A stretch of 64,000 bases of DNA, taken from contig JAOTYL010000004.1 in NCBI GenBank assembly GCA_029861865.1, positions 1-64,000 of the forward strand, given 5' to 3'. The DNA is from Myxococcales bacterium. Lineage in GTDB: Bacteria > Myxococcota_A > Polyangia > Polyangiales > Houyiibacteriaceae. Made by a program: the position numbers and the translations under genes. Positions 40,683-51,090 of this stretch are shown one piece after another. The stretch's first letter is position 1; the number at the start of each line of letters is the position of its first letter. The notes under the pieces were generated by a model, which saw nothing but the letters and a program-made list of their open reading frames with translations, ran no database searches and was not told the DNA's origin.

Positions 40683-41639
40683 CTACTCGCTGGTTGTGTC
40701 TTCGGGATTGGTCGGCGAGGTTTCCCGCTCACGGGTGCTTGGTTGGTACCGCAACAGGTCCTCGACTCGTTCGAGCAGTTCGCCTTCGAAGTGCACCGAG
40801 AACCGAGGTTCGAGGAGCTTGCTTCGCACCCGCCAAACCACTGGGTCGGCCGGATCCCTGAGAACGACTGGCGCGGCGCCTGCGAGCACCCAAGGGGAAC
40901 TGAGGATCGCGTCGTTCAGCGCCAATCGTACCTGCGATGCGTCATGATACCCCTCGAGCCTGACGACGACCTCGTGCTCTGCTTCGGCGCCAGCATCGTA
41001 GACCATCGGCGCGCCGACCATGGCCCGGTTCGGAACGGTCAGCCGGTGGCCCTGTCCGTCGCGTAACCAAGTTGCCCGTAGGGAACGGCCCTCGACGGTG
41101 CCTTGGAAGCCATCTCCAGACACCCACATGCCTTTTTTCACGCGGCGCTCGCTGGCGAGAATTGCGCCTGCGACGACGTCTGCGAAGAGATCGCGAACCG
41201 ACCATCCCGTGACGATGGCGATAATCACGACCCCCCAAAGAATCCAATCGCGGCCCGAGGGCAAGAGCTCGAGAGCGATCGCGATCACAAGCCCAAACCC
41301 GGTGAGACGCAAGAGCATGACCAGCGCGCCCATGACGCGACGCAGGGGTACGTTGACCGTTATCCACGCACGCGTTCGCTCGGAGACGAAGAGCGCGAGG
41401 CCCACTCCGAGGAGCGACAAGAATAGAATCAAAAGCGGCCGACGCTTGGACGGCGATTCCTCTTCGATCTCGTCTGTGAATGGCTCAGACCCCTCGAATC
41501 CGAGGTCGGTGTCGAGTCGTTCTTCAGCCCGCGGCCGCTCCGAGGACTCGTGCTCAAGCGGTTCTTGTGCAGTCCCAGGCGAGACCAAGAGCAAGGCGAG
41601 AAGAAGCCCAAGCGGCATATTGCGATGAACAAAGGCCAT
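40683..41639 (-). CDS. MscS-family mechanosensitive channel protein
   Basis: From ATG 41639, which overlaps the upstream stop as TGATG, this is a 318-residue protein. It has a signal peptide (MPLGLLLALLLVSPGTA), an acidic periplasmic stretch, three membrane helices (about 70-165) and the MscS beta domain: SVRDLFADVVAGAILASE, then ATWLRDGQGHRLTVPNRAMVG and a cytoplasmic C-terminal region. Small MscS-type channels release solutes under hypo-osmotic shock. As the last gene of the Trk/Kef operon it fits an osmotic function. Confidence 0.85.
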   Translation of the reverse strand: MAFVHRNMPLGLLLALLLVSPGTAQEPLEHESSERPRAEERLDTDLGFEGSEPFTDEIEEESPSKRRPLLILFLSLLGVGLALFVSERTRAWITVNVPLRRVMGALVMLLRLTGFGLVIAIALELLPSGRDWILWGVVIIAIVTGWSVRDLFADVVAGAILASERRVKKGMWVSGDGFQGTVEGRSLRATWLRDGQGHRLTVPNRAMVGAPMVYDAGAEAEHEVVVRLEGYHDASQVRLALNDAILSSPWVLAGAAPVVLRDPADPVVWRVRSKLLEPRFSVHFEGELLERVEDLLRYQPSTRERETSPTNPEDTTSE

Positions 41640-44600
41640 CACAGCACCCATCCTCGTTCGGCGAATACCCTGCCGAGCGCACCGCGCAGGTGGACTGCGA
41701 TGACGAACGAACCGTCTCGTTCTTCGAGCAGGCCGAGATGAGCCAATCGACTGAGCTGCGCCTGCGCGGCATTTCGTTCCAGGCGAAAGAGGCGCGCTTG
41801 GCCGGCATCATCCATCCAACCCTCGCGCGCAATTTGATACAGGTTCACCAGAATGTCGTCTGGCAGTCGCTTGACACGAGCGTATGGCGACGCCGGGATG
41901 GGCCCGACGTGCACGACGTCGTCTACGATCCCACGGATCGAAGCCAACCACAATCGGAGCGCGTCGCGCACCAGCCCCCCCGTGGCCCTCTGTAGCTCGT
42001 GAAAGTACTGATCGTAGGGGCGTCGAATCCGGCTAGCACCTCGTGCGAACATGCCCTCGATTGGCGAACCGTCGCTCCGGTCGAACGAATGCTCGTAGCC
42101 GCTCAAACGGTGTCGCGCCATGACTGCCGCTTGCAGCTCGTGCTCGTTCAATGGCTCGAGCTTGATCACTTCGGGGAATGCATCTCTCAGCGGCGCGACC
42201 GTGGAAGCAAAGTTCCAGAACAACACTGCGCCGTGCGCCAACCAGCGGCGTCTTCCCCCTTCTTCGATGATCCCAGAGACGAAACGCCGCAGGGGATCAA
42301 ATCCCCCGGGCGCCATCGACAACATCCAGTGAAGCCCGTCCACGACGACCAGCTGACCTTCAGGCTTGTCTTGGAAGATCGCGTCGACGTCTTCGACCGT
42401 CACCGGCGCGGTGAAGACCACGCGCTTCACGTTCCTCCAGCGTCGGCTTCTGACGATCGCGCTCGACACTGCGGCCTTGCCAACCCCGTCGACGCCGATG
42501 AGCGCCACCGACCGCAGTCGCCCCTTGACCTCGCTAGAAAGGACAGCCTCCGCGCGACGGATTTCCTCTTCGCGACCAGTCAACACATCGCCAGCCTCCA
42601 TCGTGTCGGCCGCGAACAGGCGTCGGTACACCAGGGGCAAGTCGACCGAGACTTCAGGCGCGGCAAACGCGCCGGCAGAAAGAGCTTCGGTCGGTATCGC
42701 GGCCGTGATCCCGAGTGTCTCCGCCCAGCGCTCGAGCCGGTCCTCCCCAAACACGGCGCGCATGCCGCCCCGCACCTGGCGCTTGAGCCGCTCGAGCGGA
42801 GGCGCACGCTCAGCTTGCTCGATCATCCGGAGGCCACTCGCCGCCCGACGCATCGCCTCGAGCCGCGATTTGCTGAATGTGCCCTCTGCAAGCTCGCTAC
42901 GGAGGTTCGCGAGCGTTCCGAGCGATGCGTCACGCATCTCGCTCTCTATCAGTGAAGGCCACCCTCTTGCTTCGGCAAGCATCTCTTCGAGCGAGTTGTA
43001 GCTGCGCTCGAGTTGCCCATAGACCATGTCGCGAAGAAGAGTGTACATCTCTTCGGGGATCACTTCGTCATGGACGACCTCGAGCTCAGCGGTCGCGAGC
43101 TCGACGTTGAAGGCCACCGCCCGCTCGAGCTCCTGAAGGAGGTTCGCGAGAGGCTGGGCCTTCTCGGCGAGCTCGCGGCGACTTGCGAGCAGCTTTGGCG
43201 CTACCTGACTGTCGATGTAGGTGAGCACCACCTCGCGGAACGGCACCTCGACCTCGGGCAGGGCCGTCGGTAGTCGCCATTCACCAGTCTGGCGCTGTCC
43301 GACGGTGACGCGATAGCGAGGCGTGAGGCCGCGACAGGCATCAACCAACGTATCGAGCAGAGAAGCGATTTTCGAATCGTCGCTCAGGTCTTGATAGAGC
43401 TCGGTCGTGATGCGCACCGCTTCGCCGGTGACCTTGCTGGTCGCCTCGGTCGTCTGCCTCAGCGCCGCGGCGAGCTCTTCGCCCGAATAGTCCTTTTCGA
43501 GCTCCTGCTCCAGCTCTTTGAGCGTACCCTCGAGGGTCTCGCTCACCCGCTCCACCTGCGTGATTGCGCGGCGCTTCACCGTGTTGGCGAGTCGTGACAC
43601 GTACTCCGCCACGTTGTCTTTGATACGCGCCTCGAGACCGAGGAGCTCGAGCTCCATAGCCAGCGACGAGTATTCGGCGGAGCTCGCCTTACGGAGATTC
43701 GCAACGTCTTTTGTCAGCGTTTCCATCGCGCGCATCCGGGTCGCAAAACGGCGACTGGTGCGACGCTCACTTCTCGGCAGGTCCAGCGTGCCAAACGTCG
43801 GTAGGTCTTCTTTCATCTTGACGAACCCGCCGCTTAGGGCGCTTGCAGCTCTGTGTGTGCCTTCGTTCGTGATTCGCACCACTTCGTCGAGGGCCAGGGA
43901 AAGCTCTTCCTCGACATCATGGCGCAAGCGCACCAGCTGCTTTTCCAGATCGACGTCTGGATCCGGCCCGATTTCGACGATGTCGTCGTAACCCGCCATC
44001 ACGCCGTCAAAGAGACTCCGGGTACGGGCTGCAAGATGTCGGTTCGCCTCCACGAAGAGCGCGGCCAGAGCCTCGAGGCGAGCAGGAGCGTCGTAGGAAA
44101 GACGGAAGCGAGCGAGTGCACGAAATTTGAGGTCGCGCGTGGGTGGACCTTGCCCGAGTGCCTTCCGCCACCCACGCCTGAGGCGTAACATCTGACGTCG
44201 AAGCCGCCGCCAAGGCGAATCATCCTTGTTTGGCCCGTACGACTGCGGCTCGAAGGGCGCGACCACGACCTCGGGCAGAGCGTCGACTATGCTGTCCAGG
44301 TCTTGAATCATGCTCTCTGGTGTCCAGGTTTGCTTTGCCAACGTGACCGACCGGCCAAGCACGATCCCGCGCCAATGGGCTGCCAAGTCGGACTGCGCGG
44401 ATCGCAACATCGTGACCAGCTCCTCGCGATCGGCATCGTTTTCAGCTCGGGCTTGCACCGTCAATCTTCGATGATGCCGTAGGAATTCGCGACGAAGGTC
44501 ACGCAGATACTGCGCGGAATCGGTTTGAAACTCGCGAAGGGGACCGGTCGACACCTCTCGGACGATGCTCTGCAAATCGCCGGCGAGATCCTGCATGCGC

Positions 44601-46153
44601 GTGTTGAGCTCGTCGCTTTGAGTCTCGAGGGTCGGACCCCACAGATCCTTTTCGCCGATGTGTTGCGGCCACGGCTCGAGCCGTCTCGGTGCGCCGGGCT
44701 CTTCACTCTCCGGTCGAAGCGAAGGCGGCCTGACCGACAGGTGTCGGGTGGGCGCAATCGAAGAGCCACCGGTGATCGTTTCGCCCGCTAGACCGAGCCC
44801 CATCTTGAACATGACCGGGCCCACCAGCTCGTTGATCGCCACCCCTCCGATGATCAGGGTCTCGAGCGATGTGCCAAGCTCGCCGAAGGTCTTTCCAATG
44901 ATCGCCGCCAATAGGATCGAGACCCCTGCCTGGGATACGAAGCCCATCCAGCCAAACTGCCGAGTCGCTTCATCTGCCTTACCGAGCCGAGCGCCAGCCT
45001 TGGTGCCCGAGTAAATGGCGAAGCCACGAACGGTGACGAGGGCGATCGCGAACAAAGCGACCTCCCGAAGCTCCTCCAGATGGAGCTTGGCCCCGGCGAG
45101 CGTGAAGAAGACGACGTAGACGGGCAGTGACAACCGTTCGACCGTCTCGATCAATCGATGGCCTGTCTTCGAAAAGTTGGCGACGCCAAAGCCGGCCGCT
45201 AGGAACACCAGGACCAGATCCCATTCGAGAACCCCGGCGATGTATGCGACTAGATAGACGACGCCTACCACGAAAATCAGGAGCTCTTGATTGACGTAGC
45301 GGATGTACAGAGCCATCAAGCCGCCGACGACCACTCCGCCAAATAGGATCGAAAACCCGATGTGCTTGACCAGGTATTCGCCGATACCGCCTTCGATCGC
45401 GGTGACCCCGAGCTGCTGACCGACGATCACTACGGCAATCGCAAATGCGACCACCACGAGGACGTCCTTGAGGACGACGACGGATAGAACGTTTTGGGTC
45501 ATCGCACCCTTGGCCCTCGTTTCCATGATCACGGCGATGGTCGCCGCTGGGGAGGTGGCGAGAGACACGGAGGCCACCATCGCCCCGACCGCGAGAGCTG
45601 CCGTCATGGGAAGCCCCTCGACGCCAGGCAGAGCGACGACCGGCACGACCCCCGAGATCAGCCAGAAAAACGCCGTGACCAACACGAGGACAGAAATCAG
45701 TTGTGCGGCTAGAACTCCGGTGATCGCGCCAAGACCCTTCTTCAGGCTCTCTAGCTTCAGCTCTCCACCCGCGGTCATGGCGATCAACGCGACGGCGAGA
45801 GTGTCGAACAAGCTCAGCTGCTCGATGACCTCGTCGTTCAGGACGCCTTTGTCGAACGGTGGAGGAAGCGCGAGTCCGGATAACGACTTGGCGAGGGATG
45901 GACCGAACAGCAAACCGGCGATCAGGTACCCCGTGATGTGAGGCAGCCGAATCTGGCCCACGAGGCCGCCGATGGTGTAGCTCGCAAGAACGACGAACCC
46001 GAGCGCGAGCATGGCGGTTGGGTCAAACGGACGTTTCGCGAGTTGCTCGAACTGATAGAGCGCGACCATTCCGAACAACAGCAGCACGATGACTGTAATC
46101 TGCCGGCGTGCGTGGGATTCTTCGCCCGGCGGCGGCATGCTGTAGGTGCTCAT
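41639..46153 (-). CDS. CPA2/Kef-type cation:proton antiporter fused to a STAND/AAA-like ATPase
   Basis: This 1504-residue protein has an unusual domain set. ATG 46153 is preferred because GGAGG lies 8 bases upstream. Residues about 20-455 form a CPA2 monovalent cation:proton antiporter with some 12 helices (VGQIRLPHITGYLIAGLLFGP, the ALAVGAMVASVSLATSPAAT core, LKDVLVVVAFA). Residues about 480-1150 are soluble and strongly helical, with coiled-coil-like Glu/Arg/Leu runs. An NTPase follows: Walker A-like GVDGVGKA near 1220 (Ala replaces the usual Ser/Thr), Walker B-like QLVVVDGLHWML near 1267, and a helical lid (LEPLNEHELQAAVMARHRL). A probable winged helix (DILVNLYQIAREGWMDDAGQ to SRLAHLGLLEE) ends the protein. 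STAND-type gating of an ion transporter is inferred. It lies between trkH and mscS. Confidence 0.82.
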   Translation of the reverse strand: MSTYSMPPPGEESHARRQITVIVLLLFGMVALYQFEQLAKRPFDPTAMLALGFVVLASYTIGGLVGQIRLPHITGYLIAGLLFGPSLAKSLSGLALPPPFDKGVLNDEVIEQLSLFDTLAVALIAMTAGGELKLESLKKGLGAITGVLAAQLISVLVLVTAFFWLISGVVPVVALPGVEGLPMTAALAVGAMVASVSLATSPAATIAVIMETRAKGAMTQNVLSVVVLKDVLVVVAFAIAVVIVGQQLGVTAIEGGIGEYLVKHIGFSILFGGVVVGGLMALYIRYVNQELLIFVVGVVYLVAYIAGVLEWDLVLVFLAAGFGVANFSKTGHRLIETVERLSLPVYVVFFTLAGAKLHLEELREVALFAIALVTVRGFAIYSGTKAGARLGKADEATRQFGWMGFVSQAGVSILLAAIIGKTFGELGTSLETLIIGGVAINELVGPVMFKMGLGLAGETITGGSSIAPTRHLSVRPPSLRPESEEPGAPRRLEPWPQHIGEKDLWGPTLETQSDELNTRMQDLAGDLQSIVREVSTGPLREFQTDSAQYLRDLRREFLRHHRRLTVQARAENDADREELVTMLRSAQSDLAAHWRGIVLGRSVTLAKQTWTPESMIQDLDSIVDALPEVVVAPFEPQSYGPNKDDSPWRRLRRQMLRLRRGWRKALGQGPPTRDLKFRALARFRLSYDAPARLEALAALFVEANRHLAARTRSLFDGVMAGYDDIVEIGPDPDVDLEKQLVRLRHDVEEELSLALDEVVRITNEGTHRAASALSGGFVKMKEDLPTFGTLDLPRSERRTSRRFATRMRAMETLTKDVANLRKASSAEYSSLAMELELLGLEARIKDNVAEYVSRLANTVKRRAITQVERVSETLEGTLKELEQELEKDYSGEELAAALRQTTEATSKVTGEAVRITTELYQDLSDDSKIASLLDTLVDACRGLTPRYRVTVGQRQTGEWRLPTALPEVEVPFREVVLTYIDSQVAPKLLASRRELAEKAQPLANLLQELERAVAFNVELATAELEVVHDEVIPEEMYTLLRDMVYGQLERSYNSLEEMLAEARGWPSLIESEMRDASLGTLANLRSELAEGTFSKSRLEAMRRAASGLRMIEQAERAPPLERLKRQVRGGMRAVFGEDRLERWAETLGITAAIPTEALSAGAFAAPEVSVDLPLVYRRLFAADTMEAGDVLTGREEEIRRAEAVLSSEVKGRLRSVALIGVDGVGKAAVSSAIVRSRRWRNVKRVVFTAPVTVEDVDAIFQDKPEGQLVVVDGLHWMLSMAPGGFDPLRRFVSGIIEEGGRRRWLAHGAVLFWNFASTVAPLRDAFPEVIKLEPLNEHELQAAVMARHRLSGYEHSFDRSDGSPIEGMFARGASRIRRPYDQYFHELQRATGGLVRDALRLWLASIRGIVDDVVHVGPIPASPYARVKRLPDDILVNLYQIAREGWMDDAGQARLFRLERNAAQAQLSRLAHLGLLEERDGSFVIAVHLRGALGRVFAERGWVL

Positions 46154-46155
46154 CG

Positions 46156-47646
46156 TCACCGCCTCCAGAAACCCGGTAAGATCAACGCGAACAAGGTGAA
46201 GAACTCGAGTCGTCCGAGGAGCATCGCCACGGAGAAAAAAACTTTGGCCAGCGGCGAGTAGCTTGCAAAGTTATCAGCGCCTGAATGAAACGGCGCTGGT
46301 CCCATGTTGCAAAGCGTTGTCAACATGGCTCCGAAAGCCGTAGAGAGCGGGACTTGTTCGTGCCATGTCACGAAGAACAGGCCGAAAGCCATGCATGCGA
46401 AGTAGATGGCAAGAAAGGCAGCGACACCGAGAAGGACCTGGTTATCGATCACTCTGCGACCCATGCGCACTAGTTGAACAACGGAAGGTTGAAAACTCTT
46501 GCGAATCTCGGCCGCGGCGTACTTGGCCATCAAGACGACTCGTTCGACTTTGACACCGCCGGCGGTGGACCCCGAGCAGCCACCGATGAACATGAGCATC
46601 ACCATGATCGCCATCGCGGTTGAACCGTAGTTGCTGTAGTCATGTGTGCCGTAGCCCGTCGACGAAATAAGGGTGGCGACCATGAAGAACGAATAGCGGA
46701 AGGAATCAGCGAGCGATCCATGTAGCGAGACATTGAGCATCGTCAGAAGAACGATCGCGGTGACGACGATGCCGACGAACGCCCGAAACTGTGTGGAACG
46801 CAAGATCCCGCGGCCACTGCGGCTCTTGATAGCAGCGTAGTAGAGACCGTAGTCAACGGTTCCGATGAGCATGAAGCACGCGATCACGTACTCGACAACG
46901 GGTCTGTTGAACCCACCGATGGAGGAATCGAGCGTTGAGAAGCCCGCGGTCGCAATCGTGGTGAAGGCGTGACAAACCGCGTCGAAGAGGTCGATACCGA
47001 GTGCGAAGAGTACGATGATTTCCAGGAGGGTGAATGCTGTGTAGAGCTTCCACAGAGTGAATGAAGTTTCCGCAATGCGTGGAGTGAGTCCCTCGGATCG
47101 CGTGCCTGCTACTTCGCTTCGAAAAAGTTGTTTGGCTCCAACTCCGAGGTTCGGAAACACAGCGACAAACAAAACGACGATGCCCATGCCTCCGAGCCAC
47201 TGGATCAATGACCGCCATAGCAACATCGGACGCGAGAGTCGGACTTCGATGTCGGCGATTACGGTCGAGCCCGTGCTGGTGAGCCCACTGACCGATTCGA
47301 ACAGCGCGTCTGCTGGGGGAAGGTCCGCCCCCAACATGAACGGCAACGTGCCGCACAGCCCCGACGATGCCCAGATAGCACTTACAGTCAGGAGCGCTTC
47401 GCGACGAGAGAGACGTTCCGTAACGAAGCGGGAGCCGTAGCGAAATAGAAGGAGACCGATGAGCAGCACGACTGCCGCGGATTGCAGAAGCTCTGCGACC
47501 CCGCCTTGAGGCCGTCGCGGGTCAGGAGCGAGCTCGTCCCATGCAAAGCCGAGACCGGCACAAAGCGCGATAGCGAGGGCCAATCCCATCAGGACGGTTC
47601 CGACCGGGCGCGCGACGCCTCGAAAGTCTCTCGCTTGGGTGCTCAC
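46156..47646 (-). CDS. trkH: TrkH-type potassium uptake protein
   Basis: This 496-residue ion-conducting subunit of the Trk potassium uptake system has ten predicted helices and four selectivity-filter glycines: GLTSTGSTV, TTIATAGFST, LISSTGYGT and TLCNMGPA. SLIQWLGGMGIVVLFVAVFP and FIGGCSGSTAGGVKVERV are strong TrkH blocks. GTG 47646 overlaps the trkA stop as GTGA; the longer open frame is a shadow of trkA. Acts in the inner membrane with the TrkA ring encoded just upstream. Confidence 0.95.
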   Translation of the reverse strand: MSTQARDFRGVARPVGTVLMGLALAIALCAGLGFAWDELAPDPRRPQGGVAELLQSAAVVLLIGLLLFRYGSRFVTERLSRREALLTVSAIWASSGLCGTLPFMLGADLPPADALFESVSGLTSTGSTVIADIEVRLSRPMLLWRSLIQWLGGMGIVVLFVAVFPNLGVGAKQLFRSEVAGTRSEGLTPRIAETSFTLWKLYTAFTLLEIIVLFALGIDLFDAVCHAFTTIATAGFSTLDSSIGGFNRPVVEYVIACFMLIGTVDYGLYYAAIKSRSGRGILRSTQFRAFVGIVVTAIVLLTMLNVSLHGSLADSFRYSFFMVATLISSTGYGTHDYSNYGSTAMAIMVMLMFIGGCSGSTAGGVKVERVVLMAKYAAAEIRKSFQPSVVQLVRMGRRVIDNQVLLGVAAFLAIYFACMAFGLFFVTWHEQVPLSTAFGAMLTTLCNMGPAPFHSGADNFASYSPLAKVFFSVAMLLGRLEFFTLFALILPGFWRR

Positions 47647-48983
47647 TCGCCCCTCGGTCGAAACAGTCGTTCCACGGTTGCCCGTGCATCTTTCGTGGTC
47701 ATCAGGATCACGCGGTCGCCAGGGTGCACGATGTCCTTGCCACGTGGGATGATCACGTCGTCCCCATGGACGATCGCGGCCAGCAGAGAGCCGCGCGGCA
47801 GGTTCATCCGATGCAGCGGCTTGTTGACCGCGCGGCATTTGGGGCTTGCCGTCAGCTCGACCACCTCGGCCTGACCGTTTTCTAGGACTGTCAAACTATG
47901 GATGCCGCCGCCCCGCGAGAATCTCAAAATCTGGTCCGATGCGACGGTTCGCGGCGACAGGACGATGTCGATCCCGAGTTGTCGATAGATCGACGTGTAG
48001 TCGGCACGTTGGACGATCGTTGCCGTCCTCTTGCATCCCGCACGTTGCGCGAGCAGCGCCGCCATCAGGTTGATTTCGTCGGCGCGGGTGACGGCGGCAA
48101 AGAGATCGTAGGTTCCGACCTCTTCTTCCTCGAGGAGTGCGCCATCGGTCCCGTCACCGTGCACCACCTGTACGCCTTGGAACTCGCCGCTGATCTCCTC
48201 AGCAACGGCGAGATCGCTCTCGATCATCATGACGGTGGCTTCTTGCTGAAGGAGCTCGCGGGCCAACGCTTTGCCGACGACACCGCCTCCCACGATACAA
48301 ACGCGCCTAGCCTCGCGCTCTTTGCTGAACAGACGCTCGGCCGCGAGCACGCCTTCGGGCCGGCCGATCAGATATACGCGGTCGCCCTTTACCAAGACGT
48401 CCGCCCCACCTGGCACGAACAGATCGCCGTCGCGAACGACCGCGCTCACCAGTGTATGAGGCGGCAGCTCGACTGCTGACAACGGCTTGTTGAGCACGCG
48501 CGAATCACCGAGGTCGATCTGCACGAGCTCGACCCTCTCTTGTGCGAGGTCGACGACATCAGACGCGCCGTGTGATCTCGCGATGCGGCTGAGCTCTTGG
48601 GCGACGAGAACGCGCGGATTGATCACCACATCGACCCCGAGTAGTCCGTAGCGAATACCTTCGGTCCATCCGGACCAGGCCGTGCCCTGCACGCGCGCAA
48701 CCACGTGTTTGGCGCCCAGTTGTTTCGCTGCGAGCGCAGCGATCAAGTTCATTTCATCGTGGTCGGTGACTGCAACGACCAGGTCCCCACGGGCGACCCC
48801 CGCAACCTTCAGCAGCTTTTCGCTGGCGCCGTAGCCCACGATCGAAGCGACATCGTAGTGCTCCTCGGCGTACCGGACGGCCTTGCGGCTCGAGTCCACG
48901 GCAACGATGTCATGCCCCTCCTTGTCGAGGACGCTCAGCAAATGGCGCCCGACTTCCCCTAGGCCTATCACGACGATGTTCAT
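47643..48983 (-). CDS. trkA: TrkA-type potassium uptake regulator
   Basis: This 446-residue cytoplasmic regulator has two RCK modules, each a Rossmann RCK_N domain plus RCK_C domain. The first begins NIVVIGLGEVGRHLLSVLDKEGHDIVAVD. The second begins near residue 225 with RVCIVGGGVVGKALARELLQQ. ATG 48983 gives the nucleotide-binding strand at residue 2 and overlaps the antiporter stop as ATGA. Binding of NAD(H) or adenine nucleotides gates TrkH in known systems. Confidence 0.94.
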   Translation of the reverse strand: MNIVVIGLGEVGRHLLSVLDKEGHDIVAVDSSRKAVRYAEEHYDVASIVGYGASEKLLKVAGVARGDLVVAVTDHDEMNLIAALAAKQLGAKHVVARVQGTAWSGWTEGIRYGLLGVDVVINPRVLVAQELSRIARSHGASDVVDLAQERVELVQIDLGDSRVLNKPLSAVELPPHTLVSAVVRDGDLFVPGGADVLVKGDRVYLIGRPEGVLAAERLFSKEREARRVCIVGGGVVGKALARELLQQEATVMMIESDLAVAEEISGEFQGVQVVHGDGTDGALLEEEEVGTYDLFAAVTRADEINLMAALLAQRAGCKRTATIVQRADYTSIYRQLGIDIVLSPRTVASDQILRFSRGGGIHSLTVLENGQAEVVELTASPKCRAVNKPLHRMNLPRGSLLAAIVHGDDVIIPRGKDIVHPGDRVILMTTKDARATVERLFRPRGE

Positions 48984-50347
48984 CTCGATGTTGCTCCAAG
49001 GGACGTATCCGTGTCCTTCAGCTCGCGTTGCAGATCGCCCTGATCGACCAGCAAACCTCTCAATAGACGGGGCGCCAAGAGGTCGTTCAAGATGATCGAG
49101 CACAGAATGACCGAGTAGGCGATCTCGACGGCAGATCCCTCGTACACCAAACGAAACGACACCGCCATCGCAAGGGTGACGTCGCCGTGTGCGAGAAGAC
49201 CGCGAAAGAGATCCTTGCGTAGGCTCGTCCCCCAACCCGCGATGACGCTGGCAAGCCACTTAGCGCCGGTGCGCGCCGCAACGAAAGCCGCGAACGCAAT
49301 CAGGGTCGGGATCAACGGAGACGGGGTCCAAAGCGCACCCGCGAAGATCAAGAGGACGATCGTCATCGGCCGTTCGGTAGACTCGAGGGTGGAGTGCAAG
49401 AGCTGCCCGCCTCGCGCTACGTTGACCAGCACGAAACCCATCCAGAGGTTCACTGCCAACGGTGACAGCTCGAGGACGTACGCACCGCCCGATGCGAAGG
49501 CGATGATTCCGAGGAGCGCCAGAAATCGAGAGTTGTCGGACTCGTCGCCGGCCAAAAAGATCGAGAACAGCAGCCCGAGTGCTGCTCCCAGGCCGACCGT
49601 GACCCACGCCCAAGTCGACGCCGAATAGGTGGTCGCCTCGGGCGCATTCTCGTGAAAGACACAAAAAATCAGGCCGAACACGAGGATGACGGCGATGTCA
49701 CCGAGCCTCGTCCCATTGCGCAAGAGCGGAGCCAGGCGGCCGCTGATTTCGTATCGACGCGCGAGGAGGTCGAAGGGCTCCGAAGAGTCGGCGGCCGCGA
49801 AGCACGCGAGGGCGGCGGCGCACAGCGCGGACTCCCGCCTCGTGGTTTCGAGCAATAGCCCACTCTCGAACAAGTAGTACGCGCCAAAACCAACGGCGAG
49901 CCCCGGCAGTAGGTGGTGCAAGAACACGACTCGCCAAGTCGCTGGGTCGAGCTTCTGCAAGCTTGCAAACTCGAAGTCGGTTCCTCGCAAGAGACCCACC
50001 CAGCCGGCAGCGAGGGCGATGATCGGCAATAGGCCCGTCAGGTCATCGAACGCACCGATCGCAGGGAAGAGTGGACCCAGCATCACTCCGAGAAGCAGGT
50101 ACTCCACTCCACTCACGACGAGGAATCGATGTTGCAGTCGCTCGACGACGCTGTGGGCCAGCACGTACGCAACGCCGATGACTAGAACCAGCAACACTAC
50201 GGTTCCGAGCTCGCCTGCGCCTCCAGCTTGTTCGGCGCCGCTCGCAGCAGACGCAACGTCCGGTAGCCCGGCGAAAACGCCCAGTGCCCCCACGCCGCCG
50301 CTGATGATGCCCCCACGCCGCCGCCCCACCTCTGCCTTCCCGGCCAT
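48980..50347 (-). CDS. CPA-type (Na+/H+ exchanger-like) antiporter
   Basis: This 455-residue inner-membrane protein starts with a Gly/Arg-rich N-terminus and has about 12 helices. FLVVSGVEYLLLGVMLGPLFPAIG resembles the start of cation:proton antiporters, and NGTRLGDIAVILVFGLIFCVF and LLAHGDVTLAMAVSFRLVYEG resemble later core helices. Classification within the CPA superfamily is uncertain, and the ion may be sodium or potassium. First structural gene of the Trk/Kef operon, 77 bases downstream of tetR; trkA overlaps its stop. Confidence 0.78.
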   Translation of the reverse strand: MAGKAEVGRRRGGIISGGVGALGVFAGLPDVASAASGAEQAGGAGELGTVVLLVLVIGVAYVLAHSVVERLQHRFLVVSGVEYLLLGVMLGPLFPAIGAFDDLTGLLPIIALAAGWVGLLRGTDFEFASLQKLDPATWRVVFLHHLLPGLAVGFGAYYLFESGLLLETTRRESALCAAALACFAAADSSEPFDLLARRYEISGRLAPLLRNGTRLGDIAVILVFGLIFCVFHENAPEATTYSASTWAWVTVGLGAALGLLFSIFLAGDESDNSRFLALLGIIAFASGGAYVLELSPLAVNLWMGFVLVNVARGGQLLHSTLESTERPMTIVLLIFAGALWTPSPLIPTLIAFAAFVAARTGAKWLASVIAGWGTSLRKDLFRGLLAHGDVTLAMAVSFRLVYEGSAVEIAYSVILCSIILNDLLAPRLLRGLLVDQGDLQRELKDTDTSLGATSR

Positions 50348-50412: not shown

Positions 50413-50439
50413 GGAATTCGGGCGCTATTTGCGAATTCC
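50413..50439. promoter_or_regulatory. Probable operator before the antiporter operon
   Basis: GGAATTCG, 11 bases, CGAATTCC is a perfect inverted repeat straddling the tetR stop codon and lying about 65-90 bases upstream of the antiporter start. Its placement parallels the dyad after the other tetR gene at 14931-14955. It suggests TetR control of the downstream ion-transport genes or an internal promoter. Confidence 0.42.
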
Positions 50440-51090
50440 ATCGAGAACGAGACCGATCAGCGCATTTGCGGTCTCGAGGGGATCCAGCGGGAACTGCTTT
50501 CTCAACGCAGCGAGCGCCAAGGACTCGACTGCGCCGCTGACCGCAAGCGCACTGACTCGCGGGTCATCCACTGTGAGCAAGCCGCGCTCGACGGCTACCT
50601 CGCTCAGCGCAATCGCACGGTCGTCGAGCTCTACTGCGAGCTCCGAGAGGGCCCGTCGCGCGGCGGTGGCTGGCGCCCTGCGTTCCTGAAGATAGACGCA
50701 TGTGGCTTCCGGATACATCGCGAGGGTTGCGACCAGCTTCGTTCCGAGATGACGATAGGCATCGACGGTGTCTTCGTGCCCGTCAGCCCCGCGGAGCTTG
50801 TTGTCGCATTCACGCAGTGCGGTCCGTGCGGCGTTGGCAACCGGCTCGATGACCGCTTCGACGAGGTCTGCTTTGTCCCGGAAGTATCGGTAGAAATTGC
50901 CTTTGGCCATCCCAGCCTGGCGGGCAACTTCGTCGATGGTGACGCCCTCGATACCGTGCTTCAAGAATAACTCTAGCCCGGCGGCGACCAGGTCCTGCAC
51001 CCGTTTGCGTCGGTTGAGGTCACGTTTTCCGCCCCGAGCGCCTGGTCGCTCTAGAGGCCCGGCTCGTCGCGGTCGTCTTTCCTCATCCAT
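50425..51090 (-). CDS. TetR/AcrR family transcriptional regulator
   Basis: This 221-residue regulator has an Arg-rich N-terminal tail and then the helix-turn-helix at about residues 30-76: VQDLVAAGLELFLKHGIEGVT, then IDEVARQAGMAKGNFYRYFRDKADLV. The C-terminal domain is helical and Ala/Leu-rich, as is normal for ligand-binding TetR cores. It heads the minus-strand run that continues through the antiporter, trkA, trkH, the Kef-ATPase fusion and mscS, and is divergent from lipA. Confidence 0.92.
   Translation of the reverse strand: MDEERRPRRAGPLERPGARGGKRDLNRRKRVQDLVAAGLELFLKHGIEGVTIDEVARQAGMAKGNFYRYFRDKADLVEAVIEPVANAARTALRECDNKLRGADGHEDTVDAYRHLGTKLVATLAMYPEATCVYLQERRAPATAARRALSELAVELDDRAIALSEVAVERGLLTVDDPRVSALAVSGAVESLALAALRKQFPLDPLETANALIGLVLDGIRK

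Follow-up and report, generated by a model that had tools for sequence, protein, structure and literature searches.

A CPA2-type antiporter fused to an AAA+/STAND-like P-loop module in a conserved K+ operon of Myxococcota, beside an MscS-like channel gene

For the bacterial K+ transporters and K+ efflux antiporters that are well studied, gating is by KTN/RCK domains, and in the Kef antiporters the C-terminal domain of this kind (TrkA_N) binds glutathione adducts. Genes for K+ and osmotic functions, such as those of Trk systems, antiporters and MscS channels, often cluster. Our analysis of a 64,000-nucleotide stretch of myxobacterial DNA, hereafter the window, indicates a phylum-wide, conserved operon in which an AAA/STAND-like module takes the place of KTN/RCK on an antiporter and is tied by gene order to an MscS-like gene. 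A preliminary description, made from the letters alone, had already proposed that a CPA2 antiporter is followed here by a long helical stretch and then by a winged-helix P-loop NTPase; Pfam bears this out for the antiporter, AlphaFold2 for the remainder. The component kinds are all known; as far as could be seen, their combination and the constant MscS partner of the module are not. None of the NCBIfam and PADLOC models names the fusion protein, no solved structure has a sequence match to the profiles of the fusion, of its antiporter domain (CPAb) or of the second antiporter-like protein of the operon (CPAa), and a search of the open-access literature, which is not proof of absence, found no description of the architecture.

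The reported frame of 1504 residues is real and intact. It runs on the minus strand, which the preliminary description had not named, from an ATG at 46153, and the plus strand is full of stops there. A frameshift or stop between the transporter and NTPase parts, the result that had been named as speaking against the fusion, is absent, and a chimeric reading frame is likewise ruled out by single-frame orthologues and dN/dS. The same length in a single frame is found in at least ten orthologues from independent Myxococcota genomes, and the search for homologues of the same architecture proposed earlier did return full-length relatives; they are 79-92% identical within the genus and, among other Myxococcota, go down to about 20%. 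From synonymous and nonsynonymous counts, dN/dS is 0.08-0.12 in the antiporter, 0.06-0.09 in the helical region and lowest, at 0.04-0.05, in the NTPase; with purifying selection on all of them, the three parts are one selected protein. The features are collected in Table 1.

Table 1. Positions in the window of the operon genes and of the domains and motifs of the fusion protein.
Feature	Coordinates	Strand	Basis
TetR-type regulator, upstream, conserved in genus	50425..51090	-	Pfam TetR_N E 3e-16; synteny
CPAa, second CPA2-fold antiporter-like protein, 455 aa, no own Pfam match	48980..50347	-	hhalign to CPAb antiporter domain
TrkA, two TrkA_N and two TrkA_C	47643..48983	-	Pfam E 2.5e-45; start chosen at MNIVVIG
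TrkH K+ transporter, start codon uncertain	46156..47643	-	Pfam E 1.2e-55; genome's only TrkH
CPAb-AAA fusion gene, 1504 aa	41639..46153	-	single ORF; single-frame orthologues 79-92% identical; dN/dS 0.04-0.12
Antiporter domain, residues 20-465, CPA2-like	44759..46096	-	Pfam Na_H_Exchanger E 1.5e-20
CPA motif positions 1-4, A199-T200-S201-P202, unwound TM4	45548..45559	-	Ser201 in 40/40 aligned members
CPA motif positions 6-7, K229-D230, TM5	45464..45469	-	D230 site: 35 Asp, 2 Glu, 3 Asn of 40; K229 26/40
CPA motif position 8, R376	45026..45028	-	Arg 40/40; placed at position 8 by alignment and inference
Cytoplasmic helical region, residues 505-1147, diverged internal duplication around two beta-hairpins	42713..44641	-	AF2 and hhalign
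AAA+/STAND-like P-loop domain and winged helix, residues 1165-1504	41642..42661	-	AF2; AAA+ matches Z ~15; profile matches to Cdc6/Orc and Clp
Degenerate Walker A GVDGVGKA, residues 1220-1227	42473..42496	-	Lys kept, Ser/Thr lost
Walker B-like LVVVDG, residues 1268-1273	42335..42352	-	alignment
C-terminal winged helix, ~residues 1423-1499	41657..41887	-	AF2 secondary structure
MscS-like channel, 322 aa, overlaps fusion gene end	40683..41651	-	PF00924 E 7e-10; neighbour in 45/51 loci

In one relative (L010 7902-12698, CP070650.1) the frame continues with a different C-terminus past about residue 1480, a frameshift or rearrangement that may be an assembly error, and an MscS-like gene was looked for downstream of it and not found.

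The Pfam match to Na_H_Exchanger (PF00999) covers residues 58-448 and scores 73.9 bits (cut-off 26.2; E 1.5e-20). Read against the eight-position CPA motif defined in PMC6181914, CPAb has A199-T200-S201-P202, V225, K229-D230 and R376, that is, the Asp at position 7 (D230), Arg or Lys at position 8 (R376) and lack of Glu at position 5 (V225) by which the CPA2/NhaA fold is recognised. The model of that paper, whose text does not mention Lys at position 6, predicts electroneutral exchange where this position carries no acid, and with Lys there CPAb exchange is predicted to be electroneutral. The antiporter had been called Kef-type, a label that does not survive: the Kef signature L-S-S-T ... Q-D ... 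K (PMC10224563) is absent from CPAb, which reads A-T-S-P ... K-D ... R in the terms of PMC6181914, and no Pfam match to a TrkA_N (KTN/RCK) domain occurs in the fusion protein, whose residues 480-1504 fold as helices and an AAA+ domain. These two features rule out Kef membership. The operon also contains no KefF/KefG-type oxidoreductase, the neighbours being Trk, CPAa and MscS genes; the nearby FMN dehydrogenase belongs to PF01070 and lies on the opposite strand. The ATSP motif is neither the LSST of Kef nor the ATDI of NhaA, and K+ versus Na+ is not readable from it. In three loci (L065, L066, L071) the TM5 motif of CPAb is NN, and the ion-binding Asp is absent.

An AlphaFold2 model of residues 480-1504 (mean pLDDT 84.6) is mostly helix from about 514 to 1147; then comes an alpha/beta domain with a P-loop, and after it a winged helix. 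The P-loop domain of the model superposes on AAA+ chains with Z ~15 over about 210 residues at 3 A, and its Foldseek matches are RuvB/Orc1/STAND-type chains, so that the lack of a P-loop fold, which had been set out as a refuting result, did not occur; the Pfam AAA_16 match at residues 1191-1235 is weak and below the cut-off. Of the earlier term STAND-like, the AAA+/ORC/STAND-type fold with its winged helix stands. The rest does not: in the winged-helix region the STAND GxP motif is absent from the window protein (TGGLVRDAL), distant members and the paralogue in the same genome having GNP, and the modelled protein ends with the winged helix, with no C-terminal repeat sensor domain.

The change of the Walker A Ser/Thr to Ala proposed for GVDGVGKA is exact and conserved in the genus. 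The window protein thus has no catalytic GxxxxGK[ST], and the Walker B-like acid is present. Loss of catalysis in the antiporter-fused branch is likely, given that K[ST] is found in 3 of its 34 (CPA2) members as against 4/10 of the modules not on an antiporter, and that the own-genome copy is intact. Since conservation within the protein is highest in the NTPase domain despite the loss of catalytic residues, a role as sensor or scaffold fits better than decay. The rarity of K[ST], the loss of the Lys in 11 of the 34 members (23 keep it), the two loci without a recognisable Walker A loop (L072, L074) and that same conservation would also suit a dead, purely structural scaffold: a complex of the antiporter, and perhaps of the MscS-like channel, would be held together by the AAA-like domain with the helical arm, and nucleotide would be irrelevant in this lineage. 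We consider this rather unlikely, because the genus of the window still has the Gly, the Lys and also the Walker B acid, the RH..SG and lid motifs of the module are conserved, and the loop of the own-genome paralogue is intact (GERGLGKTT).

Residues 505-1147, between antiporter and NTPase, are predicted to be almost wholly helical (pLDDT 88, pTM 0.77). The two halves of this region, laid out around the beta-hairpins, resemble each other (hhalign probability 91%, E 1e-6), which makes an ancient internal duplication likely. Fold searches gave no confident fold for it. The likeness to a bacterial dynamin stalk, with a best Foldseek E of 0.3 and a VIA Z of 9.1, lies below what is informative for helical bundles and, like that to the MnmE helical domain (Pfam E 0.006, below the cut-off) or to helical toxins, does not rise above chance level.

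The gene order in the window is TetR - CPAa - TrkA - TrkH - CPAb/AAA - MscS, and from CPAa onward the genes abut or overlap by a few bases. The order CPAa-TrkA-TrkH-CPAb/AAA-MscS recurs across Myxococcota families, several lineages have a reduced version, CPAa-CPAb/AAA-MscS, that lacks Trk, and within the genus the operon sits in a chromosomal block of lipA, TetR, the operon, the FMN dehydrogenase and a polyprenyl synthase. The genome of the window has a single TrkH, in this operon, and neither KdpA nor Kup, which points to a housekeeping operon; a module for K+/osmotic balance is its best reading. Osmotic or ion control, named early on as a possible field, is borne out as the likely one.

CPAa has the CPA2 fold. 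Na_H_Exchanger is matched by 4 of 32 CPAa members, and the alignment of the CPAa family to the CPAb antiporter domain spans some 370-408 columns (hhalign probability 99.9-100%, E 1e-31 to 9e-40). The TM5 acid of CPAa is lost in 9/32 paired loci, and there CPAb always has Asp; in the two pairs with Asn in CPAb (L066, L071) the motif of the partner CPAa is DE, with Glu present; and in the window both proteins keep the TM5 Asp. An acidic TM5 residue is therefore found in at least one partner in 32/32 CPAa/CPAb pairs, a pattern that is not significant because just two paired CPAb lack the acid. These sequences suggest that CPAa and CPAb may form a mixed dimer.

Among the loci with enough sequence, an MscS-like gene starts directly downstream of the module gene in 45 of 51: 12/13 in the genus, 24/28 in other antiporter-fused loci and 9/10 in non-antiporter loci (L080, L087, L090 and L093 are among those without it). 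In the window, the MscS beta-domain (PF00924) of the downstream gene scores 39.3 bits (cut-off 20.2). Chance adjacency is very unlikely, since the genome of the window has 11 MscS-domain matches in 4.2 Mb, yet an MscS-like gene follows both of its module genes. As read from gene order, the adjacency is a sign of co-inheritance, not of physical contact. The second module copy of this genome (L127 4824-9261; G000 contig C6, ~370.8-375.3 kb), overlapped by its MscS-like gene, has a signal peptide, a coiled coil, TM helices, the intact Walker A loop in question, GNP and an AAA_22 match above the cut-off. Signal peptide/coiled-coil/TM proteins bear the module in L077, L082, L091, L092 and L094 too, and in L075, L081 and L085 it occurs without membrane helices. 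One protein joins a K-Cl-cotransporter-like part (TIGR00930, E 6e-108) to the AAA-like module, with an MscS-like gene downstream (L089 6327-11531, minus strand), and L081 (3315-9902) has the order TrkA - TrkH - soluble 958-aa module protein - MscS, antiporter absent. A tree of the module places the coiled-coil/TM type in one group, and up to three changes are needed to account for the antiporter type. All this bears on a rival reading of the locus, an ordinary CPA2 antiporter with an unrelated C-terminal extension in a cluster of K+ genes without joint regulation. Trk, antiporter and MscS genes are indeed all K+/osmotic genes of the clustering kind, but the extension is under strong selection and retained over deep divergence, and the same module occurs on other transporters with MscS still adjoining; we therefore think this reading improbable.

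The last 505 residues of the fusion have matches with E <1e-20 in 26 of 284 Myxococcota genomes. A profile of the module matches at E <= 1e-6 in 184 of the 284, with a best match <1e-30 in about 100; many of the weak matches may be other AAA_22 proteins. Plasmids in the collection searched gave weak antiporter-domain matches only, and the phage and viral-contig collections (a single-protein query in the viral scan) contained no fusion relatives. STAND/AAA domains fused to membrane effectors do occur in anti-phage systems. The preliminary description had raised a suicidal ion-efflux defence; a STAND-like sensor would then open the antiporter or a channel upon infection. We give this idea very little chance. 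The fusion has no PADLOC match, no relatives on phages or viral contigs and no C-terminal sensor repeats, and it lies among housekeeping neighbours in a conserved chromosomal block of the genus, in an operon that holds the only TrkH of the genome; the PADLOC result, the genomic context and the absence from phage and viral collections lead us to reject an anti-phage defence system.

Taken together, the explanation that we favour, and to which we give about an even chance of being right, casts the fusion protein as the regulatory antiporter subunit within a chromosomal operon for K+/osmotic balance, with an AAA-like sensor or scaffold, a CPAa/CPAb dimer and a link to MscS. The repeated operon order, the only TrkH, the constraint on the NTPase and the CPA2 fold of CPAa count for it, as do the MscS-like neighbour, kept by the P-loop module whatever its fusion partner, and the presence of the module on a K-Cl cotransporter, after TrkA-TrkH (L081) and on coiled-coil/TM proteins. 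CPAa and CPAb would form one asymmetric antiporter dimer, which would exchange cytoplasmic K+ (or Na+) for H+. In the lineage of the window the AAA-like domain probably binds nucleotide and hydrolyses it poorly or not at all, and as a sensor or scaffold it may set antiport by nucleotide state, conformation or cell swelling. The module may further dock on, or signal to, the MscS-like channel, so that Trk uptake, fine efflux by the antiporter and emergency efflux by MscS would be set together.

More tentatively, Myxococcota as a whole may possess a class of osmoregulatory machines in which an AAA/STAND-like switch, often a pseudo-ATPase, sits on a CPA2 antiporter, a K-Cl cotransporter or a coiled-coil/TM sensor and gates an MscS-like partner, the antiporter of the window being an asymmetric heterodimer with one subunit degenerate in many lineages. 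Should the coupling be true, MscS-type channels and CPA2 antiporters would gain a nucleotide-switch partner, and one hub would set K+ uptake, graded efflux and emergency efflux. In CPAa there is, moreover, a natural case in which to ask if a CPA antiporter is able to function as a heterodimer when one half is non-catalytic.

Several known systems resemble parts of this locus. Like Kef (KefB/KefC), it combines a CPA2-type antiporter with a cytoplasmic regulatory domain of nucleotide-binding type and a likely role in K+/H+ exchange, but KTN/RCK and KefF/KefG are replaced by an AAA-like domain, another antiporter-like protein and a neighbouring MscS-like gene. With the TrkAH uptake system it shares TrkA and TrkH in the same operon, to which it adds two antiporter-like proteins, the AAA-like module and the MscS-like channel. 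The module resembles the AAA_22/ORC-Cdc6/STAND P-loop NTPases (PF13401, PF13191) in its P-loop, winged helix and AAA+ fold, and its paralogues pass the AAA_22 cut-off; the fusion differs from them in having lost the Walker A Ser/Thr and, in the lineage of the window, GxP, in lacking C-terminal repeats and in being placed on ion transporters. The downstream gene shares the beta-domain of MscS/MscK, and the coiled-coil/TM/AAA relatives with a signal peptide recall in layout the long N-terminal part of MscK, although here two adjoining genes encode them, one for that protein and one for the MscS pore domain. Finally, L089 links a transporter of the SLC12 K-Cl cotransporter type to the AAA-like module, whereas the known animal cotransporters of this type have a different C-terminal regulatory domain.
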